Positions 1 to 10,154 of a DNA stretch of 64,000 nt are shown here, piece by piece. Position numbers and translations under genes: made by a program. This stretch comes from Phytoactinopolyspora halotolerans (lineage in GTDB: Bacteria; Actinomycetota; Actinomycetes; Jiangellales; Jiangellaceae): contig NZ_JAAGOA010000031.1 of the NCBI RefSeq assembly GCF_010550675.1, positions 1 through 64,000 on the forward strand, given 5' to 3'. Under the pieces are notes generated by a model. The model was not told the origin of the DNA, ran no database searches, and saw only the letters and a list, made by a program, of their open reading frames with translations. The stretch's first letter is position 1. Every line of letters starts with the position of its first letter.

Positions 1-72
1 GTTTTCTCGTGCCCTACCATGTCTGCAGACATGGTAGGGCACGAGAAAACCCACTTCACATGATCATTTAGG
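1..72. repeat. Large palindromic repeat, copy 1 (cut by window edge)
   Basis: Bases 1-50 form a perfect 50-bp palindrome centred on the CTGCAG at 23-28. It continues rightward with an outer arm that reads CCACTTCACATGATCATTTA at 51-70. By comparison with the other two copies, about 22 bp of the left outer arm lie before the window. The element ends 14 bp beyond the stop codon of the minus-strand AAA+ gene. As RNA it could fold into a very long hairpin, so it may act as a terminator for that operon. It is AT-rich against its surroundings. It resembles REP, BIME or MITE-type intergenic palindromes, but I cannot assign it to a named family. Confidence 0.9.
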
Positions 73-85
73 TCCTGGGTGGGGG

Positions 86-3000
86 TTAGGTGTCGGGGTA
101 GGCCTGCTTGGGGCGGCGGGCGCGCCGGCCCTGCCCGGACGGCGTGAAGGCCTTCTCGGTGATCCGCTCGATGGCGGCCTCGATCCCGCCCACCTGGTCG
201 GCCAGCAGCCCGAGCGCGCCGACGGCCCGGCTCATCGGGTCTTCGTCGTCGCCCCCGAGCGCCTGGGCCTTCAGGAACGCCGCCTTGACCTCGGCCCACC
301 GCTGCGACTGCTCCGCCGTCATCCGCCCACGCAACTCGGCGAACTTGAGGAGATTCGCCTCCGCTCCCGAGGTGAGGGTCTGGGCTTCGCCGACGTAGTG
401 GTCGTCGATCATCGCCTCGAGCTCGTCGTCGTTCATCACCGGTACGACGCGGGCGGCCATGGAGATCATGTTCCGGTACGAGCCCTGCAGCTGGAACGGC
501 GGCTCCGTCCGGGACGCGTCGGCCTGCGCGGCGGAGGCGATATACGCCTGGTTGTTGGCGAGCACGACCTCCTGGACCCGGATCAGCTTCCGCAGCACCG
601 AGAGGATCTGGTCGAGTTCGGTCGGGGAGTAGGGGTGGCTGAGCTGGTCCGCCTGTGCCGACTCGTCGCCTCGTGCGAGGCGGACCAACAGGTCGACGTC
701 CGCGCGGTCGCGGGTGGAGACCGGCGCGAGGATCGGGTTGGCGGTCAGCGAATTCTCGATGTAGCTCAGCGCGAACAGCTCATCCTTTCCGGACAGGACG
801 TCGCCGAGGTTCCACACGTCGGCCCGGTTGGCGAGCATGTCGGGTACCCGGAACCGCTTGCCTTCCTCGGTGTACGGGTTGCCGGCCATGCACACGGCGA
901 ACCGTTTTCCGCGCAGGTCGTACGTGCGGGTCCGGCCGTTCCAGACGCCTTCCATCCGGCGCTGCGCATCACACAGCGAGATGAACTTCTGCAGCAGCTC
1001 GGGATTGGTGTGCTGGATGTCGTCGAGGTAGAGCAACACGTTGTTGCCCATCTCCAGCGCCAGGTTGATCTTCTCGACCTCTTGGCGGGCGGTCGCGTTG
1101 GGTGCCTCCGCCGGGTCGACGGATGTGACGCCGTGACCCAGCGCAGGGCCGTTGACCTTGACGAAGACCAGGCCGAGCCGGCTGGCGACGTACTCCATCA
1201 GCGTCGTCTTGCCGTAGCCGGGCGGCGAGATGAGCATCAGCAGGCCGCTGGAGTCCACCTGCCGCGACTCTCCGGTGGTGCCGAGCTGTTTGGCCAGGTT
1301 GTCCCCGATCAGCGGGAGATACACCTCGTCCAGCAGGCGGTTGCGGACGAACGCACTCATCACCTGGGGCTTGTACTCGTCCAGCCGCAGCTCGGCCCGC
1401 TGCCGCTCTACCAGTTCGCTCCGCTGTCGCTGGTAGGCGCGGTAGGCCGGGATGTGCTCGGCGCGGAAACGGCGAGTGCGGGCGAGCAGCTCGTCCAGCC
1501 GGAACTCCAGCGTGCGCTCGGCGATCCGCGCGTGCGTGCCGAGCAACCCGTCGACGCTGGCCGTGAGCTGTGCCGAGGAGTCCCGGCGCGGCAACGCGTT
1601 GCCGCACAGCTCGATCGCCACCGCCTCCGGCAGATCATAGCGGCCGCTCTCCACCTCGTCGGCGTTGTCCAGGAACGACGACAGCCAGGCGTCCACCAGC
1701 TGGTGACGCGCGGCCAGGTCGGGCCCGAGCTTGGCCAGATCGTCCGTGAACGCCTGACGAGACCCGGCGCCGGAACGACGGCCCAGCGCGCGGTGGAACC
1801 GCTCGGTCAGCTTCTTCGCCGTGCCGCAGGTGACGAAGCCCGCGGCGGCGTCGGCCAGTTCCTCGAACAGGTACTCGCCCGCGAGGCCGCGGTCCGCCTC
1901 CGGCACCGGTGGCAGACCGGAACGCTCGCGAAAGTCCACGATGGCGTCGTCCAGTTCGGCACAGAGCGCGTCCGTGGCCGCCGAGTGCCGGGTCTTGAAC
2001 ACGGCACCGGCCTGGTGCAGCGACGACGCCCGGGTCGTCCAGCCGGATCGTGCCTCCTCGTCCGCCCCGAACGCCCAGAACAACTGGGCGGCCGCGCGGG
2101 CGGACGGCGGGTAGCGCAGCAGCCCGGCAGCCGCATGCAGCCGCAGCAGCGCCTCCAGGATGCGAGCGGCGTCGTGGTCATGCACGCCGCGTTCGTAGCC
2201 CTCGTCGTACCGGCTCTCCGCCACCTCCCGGACGGTGCTCAGCAGGCCGCCCTCGCTGAGCGCCGCCTCGTGCAGCTTCTCCAGCGTCAGTGCATGCCCG
2301 GAACCGGAACCGTTCGCCGCCGCCTCGGCCAGGATCGACGCGGCCAGGTGCTCGGCCCGGTACACCTCCGGCGTTTCCGACACCAGCAGCTGATCCCAGA
2401 ACTGCCGGGTCGCGGCGAACTCCGGGTCCGTCACCGGCATGTGGAAATCCGTACCGGTGACGGCGAAGGTCATCTGGCCGTCATGCGGCACCAGGGTGAG
2501 GTCGACAGGCTGTGTGTTGACCGCGAACCGATGCCGGCCGAGGCGGATCGTCTCGCCGCCGTCGTCGTATAGGTCGAGCCGGTCCCGCAACGCCCGGCCG
2601 GCCTCCTGCTGAGCCGCCTTGATCCGGCCGTCCAGCTCCTCCGCCCGCACCTGGTCGCCGAGCTGGCGCAGCTCGTCCGAGACGGCGCGCAGCCGGGCCA
2701 CCATGGCATCCGAGGCGAAGTAGGTGTTGACCTCGTCGACGGAGCCGAGCGAAGCGACCCGGCGGCGGACATTGGTCAGAATCCGTTCCGCGGAGTCGGC
2801 CAGCCGGTCGGCGCGCCGGCTGCGCTCGTCCAGCAGCGACTGCTTGCGGGAGGAGAACGCCTCGTAGACGTCTTCTCGCTTGGTCTCCAGCTGAGCGAGG
2901 AAGTCGTCGAAGTCGGTGAAGCGGGCCTCGAGGTTCTCCAGCTGGAGCATGATGCGGCCGAGCTGCTCGTCGCAGGCCTCGGGTGTGTTGGCCACCGCGA

Positions 3001-5296
3001 GCCCGCTGGTGATCGCCTGCGAGAGCAGGGCGAACTCGGCGGCGAACTCGGCCCGTCCCTCGGTGGCCAGCAGGTCGCGCCGACGGCCCTCCAGCGTTGC
3101 GCGTGCGCGGTTCAGACCGCCCAGCACCTCGCCGATCCGCTCCAAGATCGCGGTGCGCATGGTGGCGTCGGCGATGTCGAGCGAGCCGATCACCTCGGTG
3201 ACGGTCTCCAGCGCCTGCGACTGTTCGGCCATCCGCTCGCCGACCACCGTGGCGTCCGAGACGGTCGGGATCGTCTCCGCCTGCTCGACGAGGCTCTCGA
3301 CCTCCTGGTGATACGCGGCGAACGCGTCCTCACGCTGCAGGAACTCGACCGCCCGCTCGGCCGCCGACGCGAGTTCGTCGTCCAGCGACGTGTCCAGCGT
3401 GTCGAGGCGGGAACCGTCGATGTAGCGCATGTCGCGCAGGGTGACCAGATGGCCCTTGGCCCGGCGCAACTCGGCCAGCTGCGTCACCCATTGCTGCGCA
3501 CTGCGCGGGGCCTCCCCGCGTACCCGCCGGATCAGCGAGGCGACGTCGGTCTCCGTCTCCTCCAGCGCGGCCGTCGCCTGCGCGGTGAGGGCCTGCACGT
3601 TCTCGAACTCGTCGAGGACCTGCTCCGCGGTGGCCCGGATCTCCGTCAGCGGCGTGCGCAGGTCGCCCAGGTCGGGTTCGCCGAGCCAGTGGTACGAGTC
3701 GAAGGCGCGCGCGCAAGCGGCGATGATCGCCTCGAACACCGCGGCGGACGGTGCCATCTCGCCGATCATGCGGGTGATCGACAGGCAGTCGGAGATGCCG
3801 CGGACCAGTTCGGCGTTGCCGATCCGCTCCAGCGGTCCGGTCCCCACCGGCTGCGCCGCGGCGTACGTGTCCGACTGGAACGGCGTCTGCCACACCTGGA
3901 GCGGGTGCACCCGGGTGGGCTCCGCCGACGTGGCCCGGAGGATGACCATGGTGCCGTCGTCGAACAGCGAGTACCCGTGGCACGGGATCGGGGTGGAGAC
4001 CTCCTTGCGGATGACGTTGTACGGCAGCAACAGGGAACGGCCCTCGTCCCGGGCGTGGAAGACGTAGAGCACGTCCTCGCCGTTGGGGGAGGTGATGGTC
4101 CGCTTGTACTCCAGGTCGCTGACGTCCGCGTCGAACGTCTTGTACTCGCCGGTGGTGAGGTAGTACCCGCCGGGGAAGATGATGCCGTGGTCCTCAGGCA
4201 GTTGCCGGCACGCCTGACCGATCCCGTCCAGCCGGGTGACGTCCTTGGTGCGGCTGTTGAAGACCAGATAGCGCCAGGTGGTCTCGTTGTACGGGCGGAT
4301 GCGGAGTAACACCAGCACACCGAGCCGGGCGTAGTGCACGTCCGCGTCCGCGAGGCTCTGCAGCGGATCGTCCACCGGTTCGGTGTAGATGCCCTGCCCG
4401 GTCTCGGTGTTGTTCTCCACCTTCAGTGTCAGCTCGCCACCGGTGGTCTCGACGAAGACCAGATCTTCGATGGAGATGTGCGGGTGCCGCCCGGTGACGT
4501 GATCGTCGCGGGTCGTCTCGATCCACTCGAAATCGTGCGACGGTCCGAAGGCGTGATCGCGATCGCCCCGGTTGTCCTGGTACGCGATCGTGCCGTCGAC
4601 GGCGAGCCGCCAGCGCAAGACGCGGAGGTCGTCGATGCTCGGGCCGGTCTGGAAGACGGCGAGCAGCTTGTCCTCGGTGCGACGCAGCTGAAGCAGCCTC
4701 GTCTGCTGGAAGTACCGGTACATGTCGGAGAAGTCGCGCTGGAACTTCTCCGTGTCTATCAGCCCGGTCACGTCCGACACGTCGACATCGTCGAACCGGA
4801 ATGCCGGCGGTGCCGAGCCGGAGCCCGACGTGGCGTCTGTGCTGCGAGAGAACTCGTGTAACGAGAACACGTCGGCGACCGTCGTCTCCTGCCGCAGGCC
4901 GACGAAGACGTTGTAGCCGAAGAGCATCAGCCCACCGGTGCCGGTGGTGCGGGCACCGGCGTCGGCACCGGCACCGGAGCTGTCCGTGTACTCGCCGTCC
5001 GCTGCGACGCCGGCCCGGCGACGTATCGTCGGGCCGGCGCCACCGAGCGAGACGATGTCCCGGGGCACACAGTTGTTCTCGGTGCGGATGCGCTCCGTGC
5101 CGATCAACTCCAGCTGCGTACCGCCGAAGACGTCGATCCGGCCGGCGTTCAGGGTCTCGGCCCGGGACGCCAGTTCGGCGGCCCGCTCGCGGAGCCGGGA
5201 CCTGAGAATCTCGTACGTCCCGGCGTCGAGCGTGTTGTGCTGTGCGTCGCCCGCGGCGCCGGTCTCCGCGGGTGTGTCAGTCGCGGTCTCGGTCAC
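86..5296 (-). CDS. Giant AAA+ ATPase with coiled coil (DUF3686 / 'DNA repair ATPase' type)
   Basis: A 1,736-residue cytoplasmic protein with a GTG start six bases after the flotillin stop, so the two are almost certainly co-translated. The first ~550 residues resemble the DUF3686 region. Residues ~550-930 are long, charged and helical and probably form a coiled coil. A single AAA+ module lies near the C-terminus. It has a Walker A PGYGKTT near residue 1360, a Walker B-like LLYLDDIQ near 1420, and a following MAGNPYTEEG stretch that fits sensor 1. Family members are often called DNA repair ATPase, but that name rests on little evidence. The pairing with flotillin and an NfeD-like protein suggests membrane-associated remodelling instead. 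The family assignment is from memory; the ATPase motifs are seen directly. Confidence 0.85.
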   Translation of the reverse strand: MTETATDTPAETGAAGDAQHNTLDAGTYEILRSRLRERAAELASRAETLNAGRIDVFGGTQLELIGTERIRTENNCVPRDIVSLGGAGPTIRRRAGVAADGEYTDSSGAGADAGARTTGTGGLMLFGYNVFVGLRQETTVADVFSLHEFSRSTDATSGSGSAPPAFRFDDVDVSDVTGLIDTEKFQRDFSDMYRYFQQTRLLQLRRTEDKLLAVFQTGPSIDDLRVLRWRLAVDGTIAYQDNRGDRDHAFGPSHDFEWIETTRDDHVTGRHPHISIEDLVFVETTGGELTLKVENNTETGQGIYTEPVDDPLQSLADADVHYARLGVLVLLRIRPYNETTWRYLVFNSRTKDVTRLDGIGQACRQLPEDHGIIFPGGYYLTTGEYKTFDADVSDLEYKRTITSPNGEDVLYVFHARDEGRSLLLPYNVIRKEVSTPIPCHGYSLFDDGTMVILRATSAEPTRVHPLQVWQTPFQSDTYAAAQPVGTGPLERIGNAELVRGISDCLSITRMIGEMAPSAAVFEAIIAACARAFDSYHWLGEPDLGDLRTPLTEIRATAEQVLDEFENVQALTAQATAALEETETDVASLIRRVRGEAPRSAQQWVTQLAELRRAKGHLVTLRDMRYIDGSRLDTLDTSLDDELASAAERAVEFLQREDAFAAYHQEVESLVEQAETIPTVSDATVVGERMAEQSQALETVTEVIGSLDIADATMRTAILERIGEVLGGLNRARATLEGRRRDLLATEGRAEFAAEFALLSQAITSGLAVANTPEACDEQLGRIMLQLENLEARFTDFDDFLAQLETKREDVYEAFSSRKQSLLDERSRRADRLADSAERILTNVRRRVASLGSVDEVNTYFASDAMVARLRAVSDELRQLGDQVRAEELDGRIKAAQQEAGRALRDRLDLYDDGGETIRLGRHRFAVNTQPVDLTLVPHDGQMTFAVTGTDFHMPVTDPEFAATRQFWDQLLVSETPEVYRAEHLAASILAEAAANGSGSGHALTLEKLHEAALSEGGLLSTVREVAESRYDEGYERGVHDHDAARILEALLRLHAAAGLLRYPPSARAAAQLFWAFGADEEARSGWTTRASSLHQAGAVFKTRHSAATDALCAELDDAIVDFRERSGLPPVPEADRGLAGEYLFEELADAAAGFVTCGTAKKLTERFHRALGRRSGAGSRQAFTDDLAKLGPDLAARHQLVDAWLSSFLDNADEVESGRYDLPEAVAIELCGNALPRRDSSAQLTASVDGLLGTHARIAERTLEFRLDELLARTRRFRAEHIPAYRAYQRQRSELVERQRAELRLDEYKPQVMSAFVRNRLLDEVYLPLIGDNLAKQLGTTGESRQVDSSGLLMLISPPGYGKTTLMEYVASRLGLVFVKVNGPALGHGVTSVDPAEAPNATARQEVEKINLALEMGNNVLLYLDDIQHTNPELLQKFISLCDAQRRMEGVWNGRTRTYDLRGKRFAVCMAGNPYTEEGKRFRVPDMLANRADVWNLGDVLSGKDELFALSYIENSLTANPILAPVSTRDRADVDLLVRLARGDESAQADQLSHPYSPTELDQILSVLRKLIRVQEVVLANNQAYIASAAQADASRTEPPFQLQGSYRNMISMAARVVPVMNDDELEAMIDDHYVGEAQTLTSGAEANLLKFAELRGRMTAEQSQRWAEVKAAFLKAQALGGDDEDPMSRAVGALGLLADQVGGIEAAIERITEKAFTPSGQGRRARRPKQAYPDT

Positions 5297-5302
5297 GAGG
5301 GG

Positions 5303-7312
5303 TTACTGCTTCGAGCCGGTCAGCGCGGCCACGGGCTGGTCGGCGAAGCCGAGGTTGCGCGCTGTCTCCAACAACTGCTCCAACTTCGACCGGTTCGGTC
5401 CGCCCTTATTGATCAGCTGCATGAGCAGCGCGGAGACCGTGAGGTTCTTCAGGTCGTCGGTGTCCACCGACTTCAGCAGCGACGTGATGTCGTCGAAGAA
5501 GCTGGAGGACCCGTTCAGCCACGGCTCGGCGATGGTGCTCGCCACCTCCGAGTTGTTGACGAACCCGTCCACACCCTTGCCGAGCGAGATCGAGCTCATC
5601 AGGCGGTCGAAGAAGACGCTCTCCCCGCCGACGATGCTGATGTCGGCCTTCTCCAGCCCGGTCGCGAGTACGCTCGCCTGCGCTTCGGCGACGTCCTTCT
5701 GCACGTTGAGCGCGGCCAGACGGATGTCCTTCTCCATCTCCAGCCGCAACCGGTACTCCTCGTGCTCCCGGCTCGCCTCGTCCAGCGCGGCCATCGCGGC
5801 GGCCTTCTCGGTGAGACCCTCCGACTCGCCCTTGAGCTTCTCACGGATCGCCTCGGCCTCGACCAGCGCCTTCTCCCGTGCGGCTGCGGCTTCGGCGCGG
5901 CCGACCTTCTCGATGACCTCGGCGTCGCGGTCGCGGACCTCGACCTCGGCGAGCCCGGCCGCGGCGACCTCCGCCTGGGTCCCCTCGGCCAGCCGGATCT
6001 TGGCCTGTGCGTCCAGCTCGGCGGCCTGCTGCCGGGCCTCGGCGAGCGTCAGCTCTTCCTGCGCCCGGTGCTTGGCTGCCTGCTCGGCGGCCTCGGCGGC
6101 CTTGATGTCCTTGACCAGGTTCTCCTGGGCCTCCGCCTCGGCGGCGATGATCCTGGCTTCGCGCTCCCGCTCGGCCTCCTCGACCGTGCGCACCCGCTTG
6201 ATGCTCTCTTCCTGCTCGGCGACGGTCTTGTCGACCGCCACCCGCTCGCGGACCACCTCGGCCACCGCGCGCTTCTCCGTCTCGACCTCTTTCTGCATGT
6301 CGATGGTGGCGAGCTCGGTCTCGCGGTCCCGGGCGACCACCTCGAGCTGGCGGTCCTTCTCGATCTTCTCGGTCTCCACGGCGACGACGCGCTGCCGGTT
6401 GAGCTCCGCGACGGCGATCTCGCGCTGCTTGTTCTCGGTCTGGACGCCGACCTGCTCATCGGTGCGGATGTTGGCCGACTCGGCCTTCAGGCGCTCCTCG
6501 GCCCGGACCCGCGCCGTCTCGGCCTCCTCGCGGGCACGGAGCGTCTCGACCTCCCGCTGCTGCGTCGCCTCGGCTTCGGCCTGGCGACGCTCCAGCTCGA
6601 GGATGGTCTCGCGTGCCTCGACGTTCTGCCGGGTGATCTCCTTCTCCCGGCCGCGCTCGAAGTCGTTGGTGCTGACGTGTTCCTTCGCGGTCAGCTCGGT
6701 GATCTTGCGGATGCCCTGAGCATCGAGGATGTTCTGCTTGTCCAGCTGGGCCATCGGCGTCTGCTCGAGGAAGTCGATGGCGGCGTCCTCGAGGCTGTAG
6801 CCGTTGAGGTCGGTGCCGATCACGCGCATGATCTGGTCGCGGAACTGCTCGCGCTGGGTGTACAGGTCGACGAAGTCCATGTGCTTGCCGACCGTCTTCA
6901 GCGCCTCGGAGAACTTGGCGTTGAACAGCTCCTGCAACGTGTTCTGGTCGCTGGCGCGTTCGGTACCGATGGCTTGCGCCACCTTGATGACGTCTTCGAC
7001 GGTCTTGTTCACCCGTACGAAGAAGGTGATCTTGATGTCCGCGCGGATGTTGTCCTGACAGATCAGACCCTCATGCCCGGTCCGTTCGATGTCGATCGTC
7101 TTGACCGAGATATCCATGTACTCGGCCTTGTGAATGATCGGCAGCACGATGGCGCCGGTGAAGGTGACGTCGACGTTGCGCACCTTCGAGATGATCAGTG
7201 CGTATCCCTGCTCCACCTTGCGGAACAGGCGCGTGACCACGAAGGCCACGGCGAGCAGAATGACCAGGAGTATGGCGAGCAGCACTCCCAGCCCGGTACC
7301 AAGGGTGTCCAT
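5303..7312 (-). CDS. Flotillin / SPFH-domain membrane scaffold protein (YqiK-like)
   Basis: A 669-residue flotillin. An N-terminal membrane segment at about residues 6-30 is followed by an SPFH/band-7 domain to about residue 200. A long Glu/Ala/Arg-rich coiled coil runs to about 480 and then a globular flotillin tail. The ATG at 7312 is preferred because GAAGGA lies seven bases upstream; a GTG immediately before it (7315) is the alternative. Flotillins organise ordered membrane microdomains and recruit partner proteins. The gene lies between an OB-fold membrane protein upstream and the giant AAA+ ATPase downstream, matching YqiJ-YqiK style operons. A role in envelope stress or membrane organisation is inferred. 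Confidence 0.92.
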   Translation of the reverse strand: MDTLGTGLGVLLAILLVILLAVAFVVTRLFRKVEQGYALIISKVRNVDVTFTGAIVLPIIHKAEYMDISVKTIDIERTGHEGLICQDNIRADIKITFFVRVNKTVEDVIKVAQAIGTERASDQNTLQELFNAKFSEALKTVGKHMDFVDLYTQREQFRDQIMRVIGTDLNGYSLEDAAIDFLEQTPMAQLDKQNILDAQGIRKITELTAKEHVSTNDFERGREKEITRQNVEARETILELERRQAEAEATQQREVETLRAREEAETARVRAEERLKAESANIRTDEQVGVQTENKQREIAVAELNRQRVVAVETEKIEKDRQLEVVARDRETELATIDMQKEVETEKRAVAEVVRERVAVDKTVAEQEESIKRVRTVEEAEREREARIIAAEAEAQENLVKDIKAAEAAEQAAKHRAQEELTLAEARQQAAELDAQAKIRLAEGTQAEVAAAGLAEVEVRDRDAEVIEKVGRAEAAAAREKALVEAEAIREKLKGESEGLTEKAAAMAALDEASREHEEYRLRLEMEKDIRLAALNVQKDVAEAQASVLATGLEKADISIVGGESVFFDRLMSSISLGKGVDGFVNNSEVASTIAEPWLNGSSSFFDDITSLLKSVDTDDLKNLTVSALLMQLINKGGPNRSKLEQLLETARNLGFADQPVAALTGSKQ

Positions 7313-7418
7313 CACAATATCCTTCGAACGATCTGAAGTCTCGATTTCCCCAGGGGGCCGAGAGAGCCTATCGGCATGACCTATAGCGCCGCTTTCGCGC
7401 GGCTTTCATCGCTTTGGC

Positions 7419-8045
7419 TCACGCTCCGCGACCGGGATCGAGTTCGGCCGCGAACGGAGAGACCCAGAACACCTCCTCGTCCGGGTCGTAGTCGAAGATC
7501 AGCGCGGTGCTACCCGACGTGAACTCGTCCTCGCCGGTCTGTCGGACATGGATGAGCGCGGTCGAGCCGTCGTCGGCCGTCACCTCCGCCTGGCCGGTGC
7601 CGTTCCCGAGGGGCGCGGTCCGGATCGTGCAGAGCTTGCCGACGAAGTCGGTGCGGGACGATTCCTTGACGTTCGGCAGCACGCGGCGCACGAACACGAT
7701 GGCGAAAGCCGTGATCGCCCACGCCACCACCACGGCGAGTGCCAGCGCGACGACGCCGAGCCCGATGGTGACCGGGTCGGAGAGGTCCAGCGCGTCGATC
7801 ACCACGGTGCCGGTGAGCGCGGCGAACCAGCCGAAGGCGATCAGTAGCGAAATCGCCACCGTGGCGGGGACGCCGCTGAGTCCCACACCGGCGAGCAGAC
7901 CGCTGCCGTCGCCGGCGTCACCGTCCAACACGTCCAGGCCCAGTCCGCCGAGCAACACAAGAAACCAGTAGGCCATGACCACCACCAACATGAAGCTGAA
8001 CACGACGACCGGGAACGTCAGCGCAGCGTCGATGAGATCGGCCAT
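7419..8045 (-). CDS. NfeD/YqiJ-like membrane protein with C-terminal OB fold (DUF1449-like)
   Basis: A 208-residue protein starting at the ATG of MADLIDAALTFPV. It has three hydrophobic segments at roughly residues 8-33, 50-75 and 85-112. The C-terminal ~75 residues are beta-rich, from FVGKLCTIRTAPLG to DPDEEVFWVSPF, typical of the OB fold of NfeD and YqiJ proteins. These proteins are partners of flotillins, and the flotillin gene follows after about 105 bp on the same strand. That gap has no strong terminator. An upstream in-frame start at 8093 is unlikely because it adds only a charged leader. The family call rests on topology and context. Confidence 0.82.
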   Translation of the reverse strand: MADLIDAALTFPVVVFSFMLVVVMAYWFLVLLGGLGLDVLDGDAGDGSGLLAGVGLSGVPATVAISLLIAFGWFAALTGTVVIDALDLSDPVTIGLGVVALALAVVVAWAITAFAIVFVRRVLPNVKESSRTDFVGKLCTIRTAPLGNGTGQAEVTADDGSTALIHVRQTGEDEFTSGSTALIFDYDPDEEVFWVSPFAAELDPGRGA

Positions 8046-8258
8046 GCGCGAGCGCGCCCCCTTCCCCTCGTTCTGCGCGTGCCTGGTGCACATCCCGACG
8101 ACGGGTACACCCCGCGTGGCTACGCGTTGCTGCGGCCATGGAGTATCCGCGCCACCACGACGCCCGTGGCGACCCTGCGGAGTATAGCCATACGGCGTTG
8201 CGGGCCGGTACAGGCCGGCGTGCCCTCGCCTGCGCCGGAGAACGCGCCGGGCAACGGC

Positions 8259-8294
8259 GGAGAGTTCTTGCTGCTATGACAGCGAAAACTCTCC
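8259..8294. repeat. 8-bp stem-loop downstream of SURF1-1
   Basis: GGAGAGTT at 8259-8266 pairs with AACTCTCC at 8287-8294 across a 20-base loop. It lies 24 bp beyond the stop of the minus-strand SURF1 gene and upstream of the NfeD-like gene, so it could be a terminator for SURF1. The rest of 8046-8318 holds nothing I can identify as coding. Confidence 0.5.
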
Positions 8295-8318
8295 GATGTT
8301 TGCGGCCAGGTCAGACCA

Positions 8319-9134
8319 TCAATCGGCCGGCCGCCCGGTGGCGCGGGCGGGCCCGTCGGCGGCGTCATCCGGCGCTGCCTCTCCGGCGTCGTCTGCGGCG
8401 GCCGAGTCCGTCGGCTCGGGGCCACGCCCCTTCGCCTCGGCACGGATCAGCAACACGAATCCGGTGACACCGACGACGGCGAAGATGAACCACTGCAACG
8501 CGTAGGACAGGTGCGGGCCGGGGTCCGCCTCGGGCTGCGGCAGAGCCAACAGATCATCGCCGGCCGGCTCGACGGCCTCTGCCCACGCGGGCACGAGCGG
8601 ATACGGCACGGCCTCGGCGATCTGCTCGACGTTGACGTAACGAATGTGTCCGCCGGCCACGTCGCCGGCGTCTCGCTGGTCCTCGGTACCGCGCAGCCGG
8701 GCCGCGACCGTGACCTCGCCGGCCGGCGGCGCCGGAGCGTCGGGATCGTCGTCGTCGGAGACATAGAACCCGCGGTCGACCAGGATCGCCGTGCCGTCGT
8801 CGGTGACCAATGGGGTGATCACATGGAAGCCGCGCCTGCCCTCCAGCGGACGCAGCCGCAGCAACAACTCGTGCTCGGTGTCGTACCGGCCGCGGACCTC
8901 GACCGAACGCCACTGTTCGGATTCGTCCAGCTGACCGGAGGTCGGATCCGGACCGAGCACCTCCTCGAGCGTCGCGGGCGGTGCCTGCTCGTTGGCTTCG
9001 ATGATGTCGTTGCGGGCGGACCGTTCCTCATTGCGGTCGAGCTGCCACATGCCGAGGCGGACACACACCAAGACGAGCAGGATGCCGGCGAGGGTACGGA
9101 CCAGCCAGCGCCTGCTCATCAGGAACCTGTACAC
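8319..9134 (-). CDS. SURF1 family protein, paralogue 1
   Basis: A 271-residue inner-membrane protein. The GTG of [10 protein letters not shown] is chosen because SURF1 proteins, including the paralogue at 18258-19151, begin with a similar xRFLxxxRW stretch. An N-terminal membrane helix lies around residues 11-30 and a second near residues 220-240 ([18 protein letters not shown]), with an extracytoplasmic domain between. [19 protein letters not shown] and LVDRGF are typical family motifs. SURF1 assists cytochrome c oxidase assembly, probably haem a insertion. The gene is divergent from moaA with only 30 bp between the starts. The tail is acidic and Ala-rich. Confidence 0.9.
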
Positions 9135-9164
9135 AACTCGACGGTAGACCATAGCCTGGAGGAC

Positions 9165-10154
9165 ATGCTTATCGACCGGTATGGGCGGATTGCCACTGAC
9201 CTTCGCGTGTCCCTGACCGACCGCTGCAATCTGCGTTGCACGTATTGCATGCCGGAAGAAGGCCTGGCCTGGTTACCCAAGCCGGAGATTCTCACCGACT
9301 CCGAGGTCGTGCGGCTGGTACGTGTCGGGGTGGAACGGCTGGGCATCCGCGAGGTCAGGTTCACCGGCGGCGAGCCGCTGCTGCGACGCGGGTTGGTGGA
9401 CATCATCGCCGGGTGCGCCGAGCTGTCCCCGCGCCCGGAGCTGTCATTGACGACGAACGCGGTCGGTCTCGCGCGAACGGCCGAGACGCTGGCCCGAGCG
9501 GGGCTGGACCGGGTGAACGGCTCGCTGGACACGTTGAAAGCGGATCGGTTCGAGGCGCTGACCCACCGGCGCCGCCTGCAGGACGTGCTGGACGGACTCG
9601 CCGCCGCAGAAGCCGCCGGGCTGTCGCCGGTCAAGGTGAACGCTGTGCTGATGCGGGACGTGAACGACGACGAAGCCCCCGACCTCCTCGGCTGGGCGCT
9701 GGAGAACGGCTACGAGCTGCGTTTCATCGAGCAGATGCCGCTGGACGCCCAGCACGCATGGCAGCGCGACGAGATGGTCACCGCCGGCGACATCCTGGCC
9801 TCCCTGCGGAAGGTGTACGACCTCTCCCCGCAGCAGCCAGAAGAGCGTGGGAGTGCACCGGCCGAGACGTGGCTGGTGGACGGCGGGCCGGCCAAGGTCG
9901 GCATCATCGCTTCGGTCACCAGGCCGTTCTGCGGTACCTGCGATCGCACCCGGCTGACCGCCGACGGACAGGTGCGGACCTGCCTGTTCGCCCGGGACGA
10001 ATCGGATCTGCGCGGCGCCATGCGTGACGGTGCCAGTGACGAGGAACTGGCGGAACGGTGGCGCATCGCGATGGCGGGCAAGGCCGCCGGCCACGGGATC
10101 GACGACCCGGGGTTCCTGCAGCCCAACCGCCCGATGTCAGCCATCGGGGGCTGA
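9165..10154 (+). CDS. moaA: GTP 3',8-cyclase MoaA (molybdenum cofactor biosynthesis)
   Basis: A 329-residue radical-SAM enzyme that converts GTP to 3',8-cyclo-7,8-dihydro-GTP, the first step of molybdopterin synthesis. The radical-SAM cluster ligands are Cys21, Cys25 and Cys28 (CNLRCTYC). The second, GTP-binding cluster uses Cys256, Cys259 and Cys273. The protein ends in the conserved Gly-Gly. The SAM-binding GGEPLL motif is also present. The ATG at 9165 sits just after GGAGG, which is unusually close, but the N-terminal [20 protein letters not shown] is standard for the family. No other moa genes are adjacent; moaC and others must lie elsewhere. Confidence 0.97.

Follow-up and report, generated by a model that had tools for sequence, protein, structure and literature searches.

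Three neighbouring genes of Phytoactinopolyspora halotolerans, encoding an NfeD/YqiJ-like membrane protein, a flotillin and a giant AAA+ ATPase, near certainly form one module, in which the ATPase is paired near-obligately with one particular type of flotillin. The genes lie within a 64,000-nucleotide stretch of DNA (the window, which was analysed at this full length) that forms the start of a contig (C25) in a 7.3 Mb genome of 65 contigs, with the contig edge 85 bp past the ATPase gene. All three were recovered as open reading frames on the minus strand, at the places assigned to them in an earlier, sequence-only reading of the window: the NfeD/YqiJ-like gene at 7419-8045 (208 aa; its longest ORF, from 8093, would give 224 aa), the flotillin gene at 5303-7315 (670 aa, GTG start) and the ATPase gene at 86-5296 (1736 aa, GTG start). 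A gap of 103 bp separates the first two genes, and the flotillin-ATPase gap is 6 bp (5297-5302), as read before. Within positions 1-9200, no sigma-70-like promoter was found and terminator-like sites were as frequent as in shuffled sequence (3 versus a mean of 3.0), with none in either intergenic gap of the trio. The P. halotolerans genome yielded no further copy of the ATPase.

Domain make-up of the three proteins

The NfeD-like protein has three hydrophobic segments and matched no Pfam model, and a profile built from its family gave a weak match to E. coli YqiJ (hhalign probability 87.5, E 3.6e-6). With these three segments and the YqiJ match, it agrees with the 3TM YqiJ/YuaF-type protein in the operon of Ravi et al. 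2024. The flotillin combines an SPFH/band-7 domain with a long coiled coil and a single N-terminal hydrophobic segment. While hmmscan at E 0.1 returned no Pfam match for this protein, the genome search scored its locus above the Band_7 threshold (31.5 vs 23.6 bits), and it aligned with E. coli YqiK at 28% identity over 453 columns (E 2e-36). Its N-terminal segment, Band_7 score and YqiK similarity agree with the flotillin of the Ravi-type operon; against the FloT equivalog model (NCBIfam NF058507) it scored 35.8 bits, where 700 are needed, and it does not belong to that family.

The ATPase, in which no hydrophobic segments were detected, consists of an N-terminal DUF3686 region predicted to be a beta-propeller, an extended middle stretch that includes DUF7902, and a C-terminal, MoxR-like AAA+ core. 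The DUF3686 domain (residues 41-536; 3689-5176, minus strand) scored 693 bits against PF12458, for which the cut-off is 25, placing the protein firmly within this Pfam family, and DUF7902 (residues 657-740; 3077-3328, minus strand) reached 107.5 bits (cut-off 26). An AlphaFold2 model of residues 22-560, based on 51 aligned relatives, had a pLDDT of 90.4. Foldseek placed WD40-type propellers first with a probability of 1.00 but TM-scores of ~0.2, and VIA-align, whose upper rows were likewise WD40-type propellers, gave a best Z of 9.7 over 210 aligned residues at an rmsd of 6.5; because this rmsd is high, we term the region only propeller-like. The accessible text of Ravi et al. 2024 (PMC11237479) names the same part of the ATPase beta-propeller repeats.

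The AAA+ core (about residues 1302-1658; 323-1393, minus strand) was delimited by structure match and by Pfam AAA_5 (27.6 bits, cut-off 22, residues 1353-1478), and Pfam AAA also matched the protein above its cut-off (26.3 vs 21.2 bits). A model of residues 885-1690 (pLDDT 91.6, 52 rows) resembled CbbQ2 most closely (6l1q_A; Z 17.4, rmsd 3.7, 251 aligned), followed by NorQ (Z 16.4 and less), with dynein and ClpA rows lower (15.0 and below). The best-scoring rows (Z 17.4 to 15.2) are thus CbbQ2 and NorQ, which indicates a MoxR-type AAA+ fold for the core. Its motifs are intact: across all 52 aligned relatives, no change occurs in the Walker A motif (PPGYGKT, residues 1358-1364; 1205-1225, minus strand), in the Asn of sensor 1, in the Arg finger or in the Arg of sensor 2. 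The Walker B motif (residues 1423-1426; window 1019-1030) ends in Asp-Asp in all 52, whereas the usual ending is Asp-Glu, and judging from this substitution ATP hydrolysis may be slow or unusual. N-terminal of the core lies an HDxDA motif (residues 1038-1042; window 2169-2183), whose H, D and D are invariant in the same 52 rows and which is possibly a metal site.

DUF3686 proteins are described in Pfam, and annotated in plasmid records, as DNA repair ATPases, a function that could also be argued from a P-loop remotely similar to that of RuvB (E 0.0045; 0.015) and from the presence of the ATPase on Deinococcus plasmids. The RuvB models, however, match the P-loop stretch only and stay below their curated cut-offs (15.5 vs 27; 16 vs 282), neither Pfam nor NCBIfam gave a match to a DNA-binding or nuclease domain, and the fixed partners of the ATPase are membrane proteins. 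With RuvB similarity confined to the P-loop, we set DNA repair aside as an unsupported and very unlikely function of this protein. Given its partners and domain make-up, a role at the membrane is likely, in agreement with the sequence-only reading, which had preferred a membrane-microdomain machine to a repair enzyme. The microdomain part of that proposal found no support.

Linkage and co-occurrence of the three genes

Among 396 genomes of the window's phylum, DUF3686 was found in nine and the ATPase-type flotillin (E 1e-60 or better) in the same nine, seven of which belong to one genus and one of which is the window's own genome. A sample of 377 genomes from the phylum of a second genome (G398), which was picked because of its ATPase, contained 61 with DUF3686 and 69 with the flotillin, all 61 being among the 69. 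Fisher tests, which ignore kinship, gave 1.7e-18 and 5e-62 for the two samples; in a third sample, DUF3686 occurred in 8 of 199 genomes. Since the flotillin profile was made from flotillins adjoining the ATPase, this co-occurrence speaks for one flotillin subfamily and not for flotillins at large: Band_7 is common, being present in 14/14 control genomes, and DUF3686 was absent from these same 14. Eight of the 69 flotillin genomes in the 377-genome sample had no ATPase. In three of them (G526, G493, G543), the flotillin match is strong and the contig ends where the ATPase would begin; the other five carry weak matches (210-290 bits), which probably represent another subfamily. With the strong matches at contig ends and the others weak, no clear ATPase-free case of this flotillin was seen. 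The survey, which the sequence-only reading had proposed, contradicts the counter-case raised there, namely that the ATPase occurs mostly without flotillin, as every ATPase genome in these two samples (9/9 and 61/61) carries one. Two genomes (G128 and G182) hold two copies of the module each, and one of the G182 flotillins has an internal stop.

Gene order was followed in two sets of loci. The first comprised the best 80 of 550 confirmed genome-contig matches and six plasmid loci (L014-L019), and because the 80 were taken by similarity, it consists of close relatives, mostly actinobacterial. After three of the 86 loci with under 1.5 kb of upstream sequence (L030, L037, L095) had been dropped, the flotillin gene was directly upstream of the ATPase gene in 83/83 and an NfeD-like gene upstream in 67/83 loci of this best-80-plus-plasmid set. 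The flotillin-ATPase gap ranged from -95 to 443 bp in 81 of the 83; at the remaining two (L051, L091), the longest ORF extends the ATPase too far, and the flotillin lies just ahead of the matched start. A 4-base overlap of the two genes occurs at 12 of the 83 loci. Together with the 6-bp spacing in P. halotolerans, this makes coupled translation of flotillin and ATPase plausible, albeit short of the near-certainty with which it had been put forward from the sequence. A single transcript spanning all three genes is not supported here, given the 103 bp between the NfeD-like and flotillin genes.

The second, less biased set contained 65 regions, drawn from the second phylum sample (covering 56 of its 61 ATPase genomes), the third sample (five regions) and the actinobacterial sample (four regions). 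The flotillin was directly upstream in 62/65, or in 62/64 when a region with only 201 bp upstream (L177) is set aside, and NfeD-like genes were present in 54/65. The two true exceptions, in which no flotillin adjoins the ATPase (L170, L195), come from genomes that encode an ATPase-type flotillin elsewhere (735 and 651 bits), there preceded by an NfeD-like gene. In one region (L212, one of the two module copies of G128), the ATPase is split into two ORFs, with the flotillin ahead of the first. The order NfeD-like gene, flotillin, ATPase is also kept in three gammaproteobacterial records (Proteus, Halomonas, Photobacterium). On these linkage and co-occurrence counts, we reject a chance neighbourhood of the three genes.

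Across 145 loci, and with antisense shadow ORFs disregarded, no families other than flotillin and NfeD kept a fixed place; the next family occurred in 17 of the 145 and on both strands. This bears on a reading in which the AAA+ core is a MoxR-type chaperone that matures a membrane enzyme or inserts its cofactors, with the flotillin as platform and envelope stress as a side effect. The nearest folds, CbbQ2 and NorQ (Z 17.4 and 16.4), are indeed enzyme activators, and CbbQ and NorQ are proteins of about 260 residues that act with VWA partners. With no further recurrent neighbour in the 145 loci, however, neither a client enzyme nor a VWA partner was seen at a fixed place beside the module, and we consider this reading unlikely.

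The patchy distribution of the ATPase (9/396 genomes of the phylum) and its occurrence in 12 plasmid records, some of them whole-chromosome-sized, could point to an anti-phage or other conflict system on mobile DNA. In line with this, PA3728-PA3732 of P. aeruginosa, named phage shock proteins in the portion of PMC12041424 available, are up in phage-infected cells. Yet PADLOC and NCBIfam matches were limited to the P-loop (IetA 16.3 bits; IteA 14.4 vs a cut-off of 510), no defence neighbour recurred in the 145 loci, and neither the phage collection nor the viral contigs scanned contained a relative. A conflict function is accordingly very unlikely; on the P-loop-only matches, we reject an anti-phage system, and a viral or phage origin is rejected as well, with no phage match and two viral-contig scans (74 and 13 pattern-matching stretches) having yielded no relative.

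At individual loci, the module has further neighbours. The pQBR103 operon includes genes for DUF2170 (YjfI), PspA, a rhomboid protease, DUF2491, DUF350, DUF1190 and a glutathionylspermidine-synthase-like protein, and on a Hymenobacter plasmid CesT_Tir_1 and PspA genes stand ahead of the trio. Directly behind the ATPase gene of Vibrio campbellii are PLD-like and TelA (toxic anion resistance) genes (L019:12834-14612), and TelA also lies behind the ATPase at the Photobacterium locus. Near the module in 10 of the 145 loci (e.g. L060:15095-17101) is a gene that one plasmid record labels a NAD-binding potassium-transport protein.

A putative flotillin-scaffold motor and its possible link to PspA

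We consider it probable that the window holds a three-gene short form of a known envelope-stress group, in which the ATPase motor works on a flotillin scaffold at the membrane. With its N-terminal segment as membrane anchor and with help from the YqiJ-like protein, the flotillin would build the scaffold, on which the ATPase would dock, probably via its propeller or coiled coil. Under envelope stress, the AAA+ ring, presumably a hexamer, might then pull on or reorganise membrane protein assemblies, candidate clients being PspA polymers, the flotillin itself or its cargo.

PspA is not encoded near the module within the window and was not found in the actinobacterial loci with the blastp queries used. 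The P. halotolerans genome contains one PspA match, on another contig (C3, 109.5 bits). Behind this PspA lie two genes (L237:7812-10546) whose products we take to resemble an HtpX-type membrane protein and a PspAA-like protein. The location of PspA away from the module fits a suggestion by Ravi et al. that PspA may be supplied from elsewhere. In the second phylum, PspA was present in 61/61 ATPase genomes versus 44/61 ATPase-free genomes, the latter chosen in even steps from 316 (Fisher 4e-6). When genomes were split at 5 Mb, this difference nearly vanished (54/54 with and 26/26 without the ATPase at 5 Mb or more; 7/7 and 18/35 below, p 0.03), so that the excess mostly reflects genome size. PspA is available to the module in ATPase genomes; as a proven partner we reject it, since genome size accounts for most of the association.

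A variant that is possible though doubtful has the ATPase as a dedicated motor, an obligate partner of one flotillin subfamily that acts on its scaffold independently of PspA, putting together, opening or turning over flotillin cages or patches. If true, ATPase and flotillin would be the bacterial equivalent of scaffold-plus-AAA+ pairs such as ESCRT-III/Vps4, built around a MoxR-type core. A motor tied this tightly to one flotillin subfamily would offer a handle on the assembly and disassembly of flotillin scaffolds in bacteria, and the tie itself argues against calling the protein a 'DNA repair ATPase', which is misleading.

Relation to known systems

The combination had been called little described in the sequence-only reading, a view that the literature does not bear out. 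In the text accessible of Ravi et al. 2024 (PMC11237479), an operon of a flotillin, a 3TM YqiJ/YuaF protein and an AAA+ ATPase that also carries beta-propeller repeats and a coiled coil is presented as related to the PspA operons but abbreviated, and chaperone-like membrane work is proposed for it; the P. halotolerans trio is the same and shows no essential difference. The full CesT/Tir-PspA-flotillin operon was not encountered at this locus: other genes lie upstream of the NfeD-like gene, the single PspA is on another contig, and the downstream side is off the contig.

An operon that seems to match the trio in composition has been studied in P. aeruginosa, going by the available parts of the reports. 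The bac operon (PMC10948618, PMC2587700) comprises six genes on one transcript, starting with DUF2170 and PspA (bacABCDEF; PA3732 to PA3729 and two genes downstream), and the amount of its PspA goes up on osmotic shock. Its 23 and 76 kDa proteins fit an NfeD-like protein and a flotillin, and PA3729 was predicted by the 2008 authors to be an outer-membrane protein (PMC2587700). Right behind bacD, PA14_16190 is 8.9-fold up in a bacA mutant (PMC10948618); its position in the gene order points to PA3728, which is listed as 'ATPase' in one table (PMC8190622) and as 'hypothetical protein' in another (PMC10210962). We infer that PA3728-PA3730 correspond to the families of the window trio. The bac operon, which its authors liken to the six-gene context of Ravi et al. 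(PMC10948618), differs from the trio in having PspA and DUF2170 inside the operon and seems to be the full form of which the trio is the abbreviation.

Further known systems share parts of the module. E. coli YqiJ-YqiK is alike in pairing a YqiJ-like protein with a flotillin, but no ATPase gene lies alongside; unpublished data quoted in PMC2636767 report no osmotic or alkaline induction of YqiK and a deletion without growth defect. In the available portion of that paper (Hinderhofer et al. 2009), which describes NfeD-SPFH operons, the word ATPase is absent. In B. subtilis pspA-ydjGHI, the SPFH protein YdjI is required for recruiting PspA to the membrane and is located in fluid membrane rather than in FloT domains (PMC8581546); this operon has other membrane partners and, as described in the accessible text, no giant ATPase. 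Links of PspA with band-7 and NfeD genes (Popp et al. 2022) and of SPFH proteins with PspA (Makarova-type ESCRT work, PMC10936438) are likewise noted in the parts available. Our literature search returned no match for DUF3686, or for 'DNA repair ATPase' with flotillin, and no experiment on a DUF3686 ATPase. The MoxR AAA+ ATPases CbbQ and NorQ, although the nearest solved folds, are only 13-14% identical to the AAA+ core, and the window's ATPase is set apart by its 1736 residues, its propeller and its flotillin partner. Beyond the operon of Ravi et al. 2024, the present analysis adds the linkage and co-occurrence counts, the MoxR-like core and the Asp-Asp Walker B ending, and the P. halotolerans trio is a well-supported new example of that operon, not a new kind of system.
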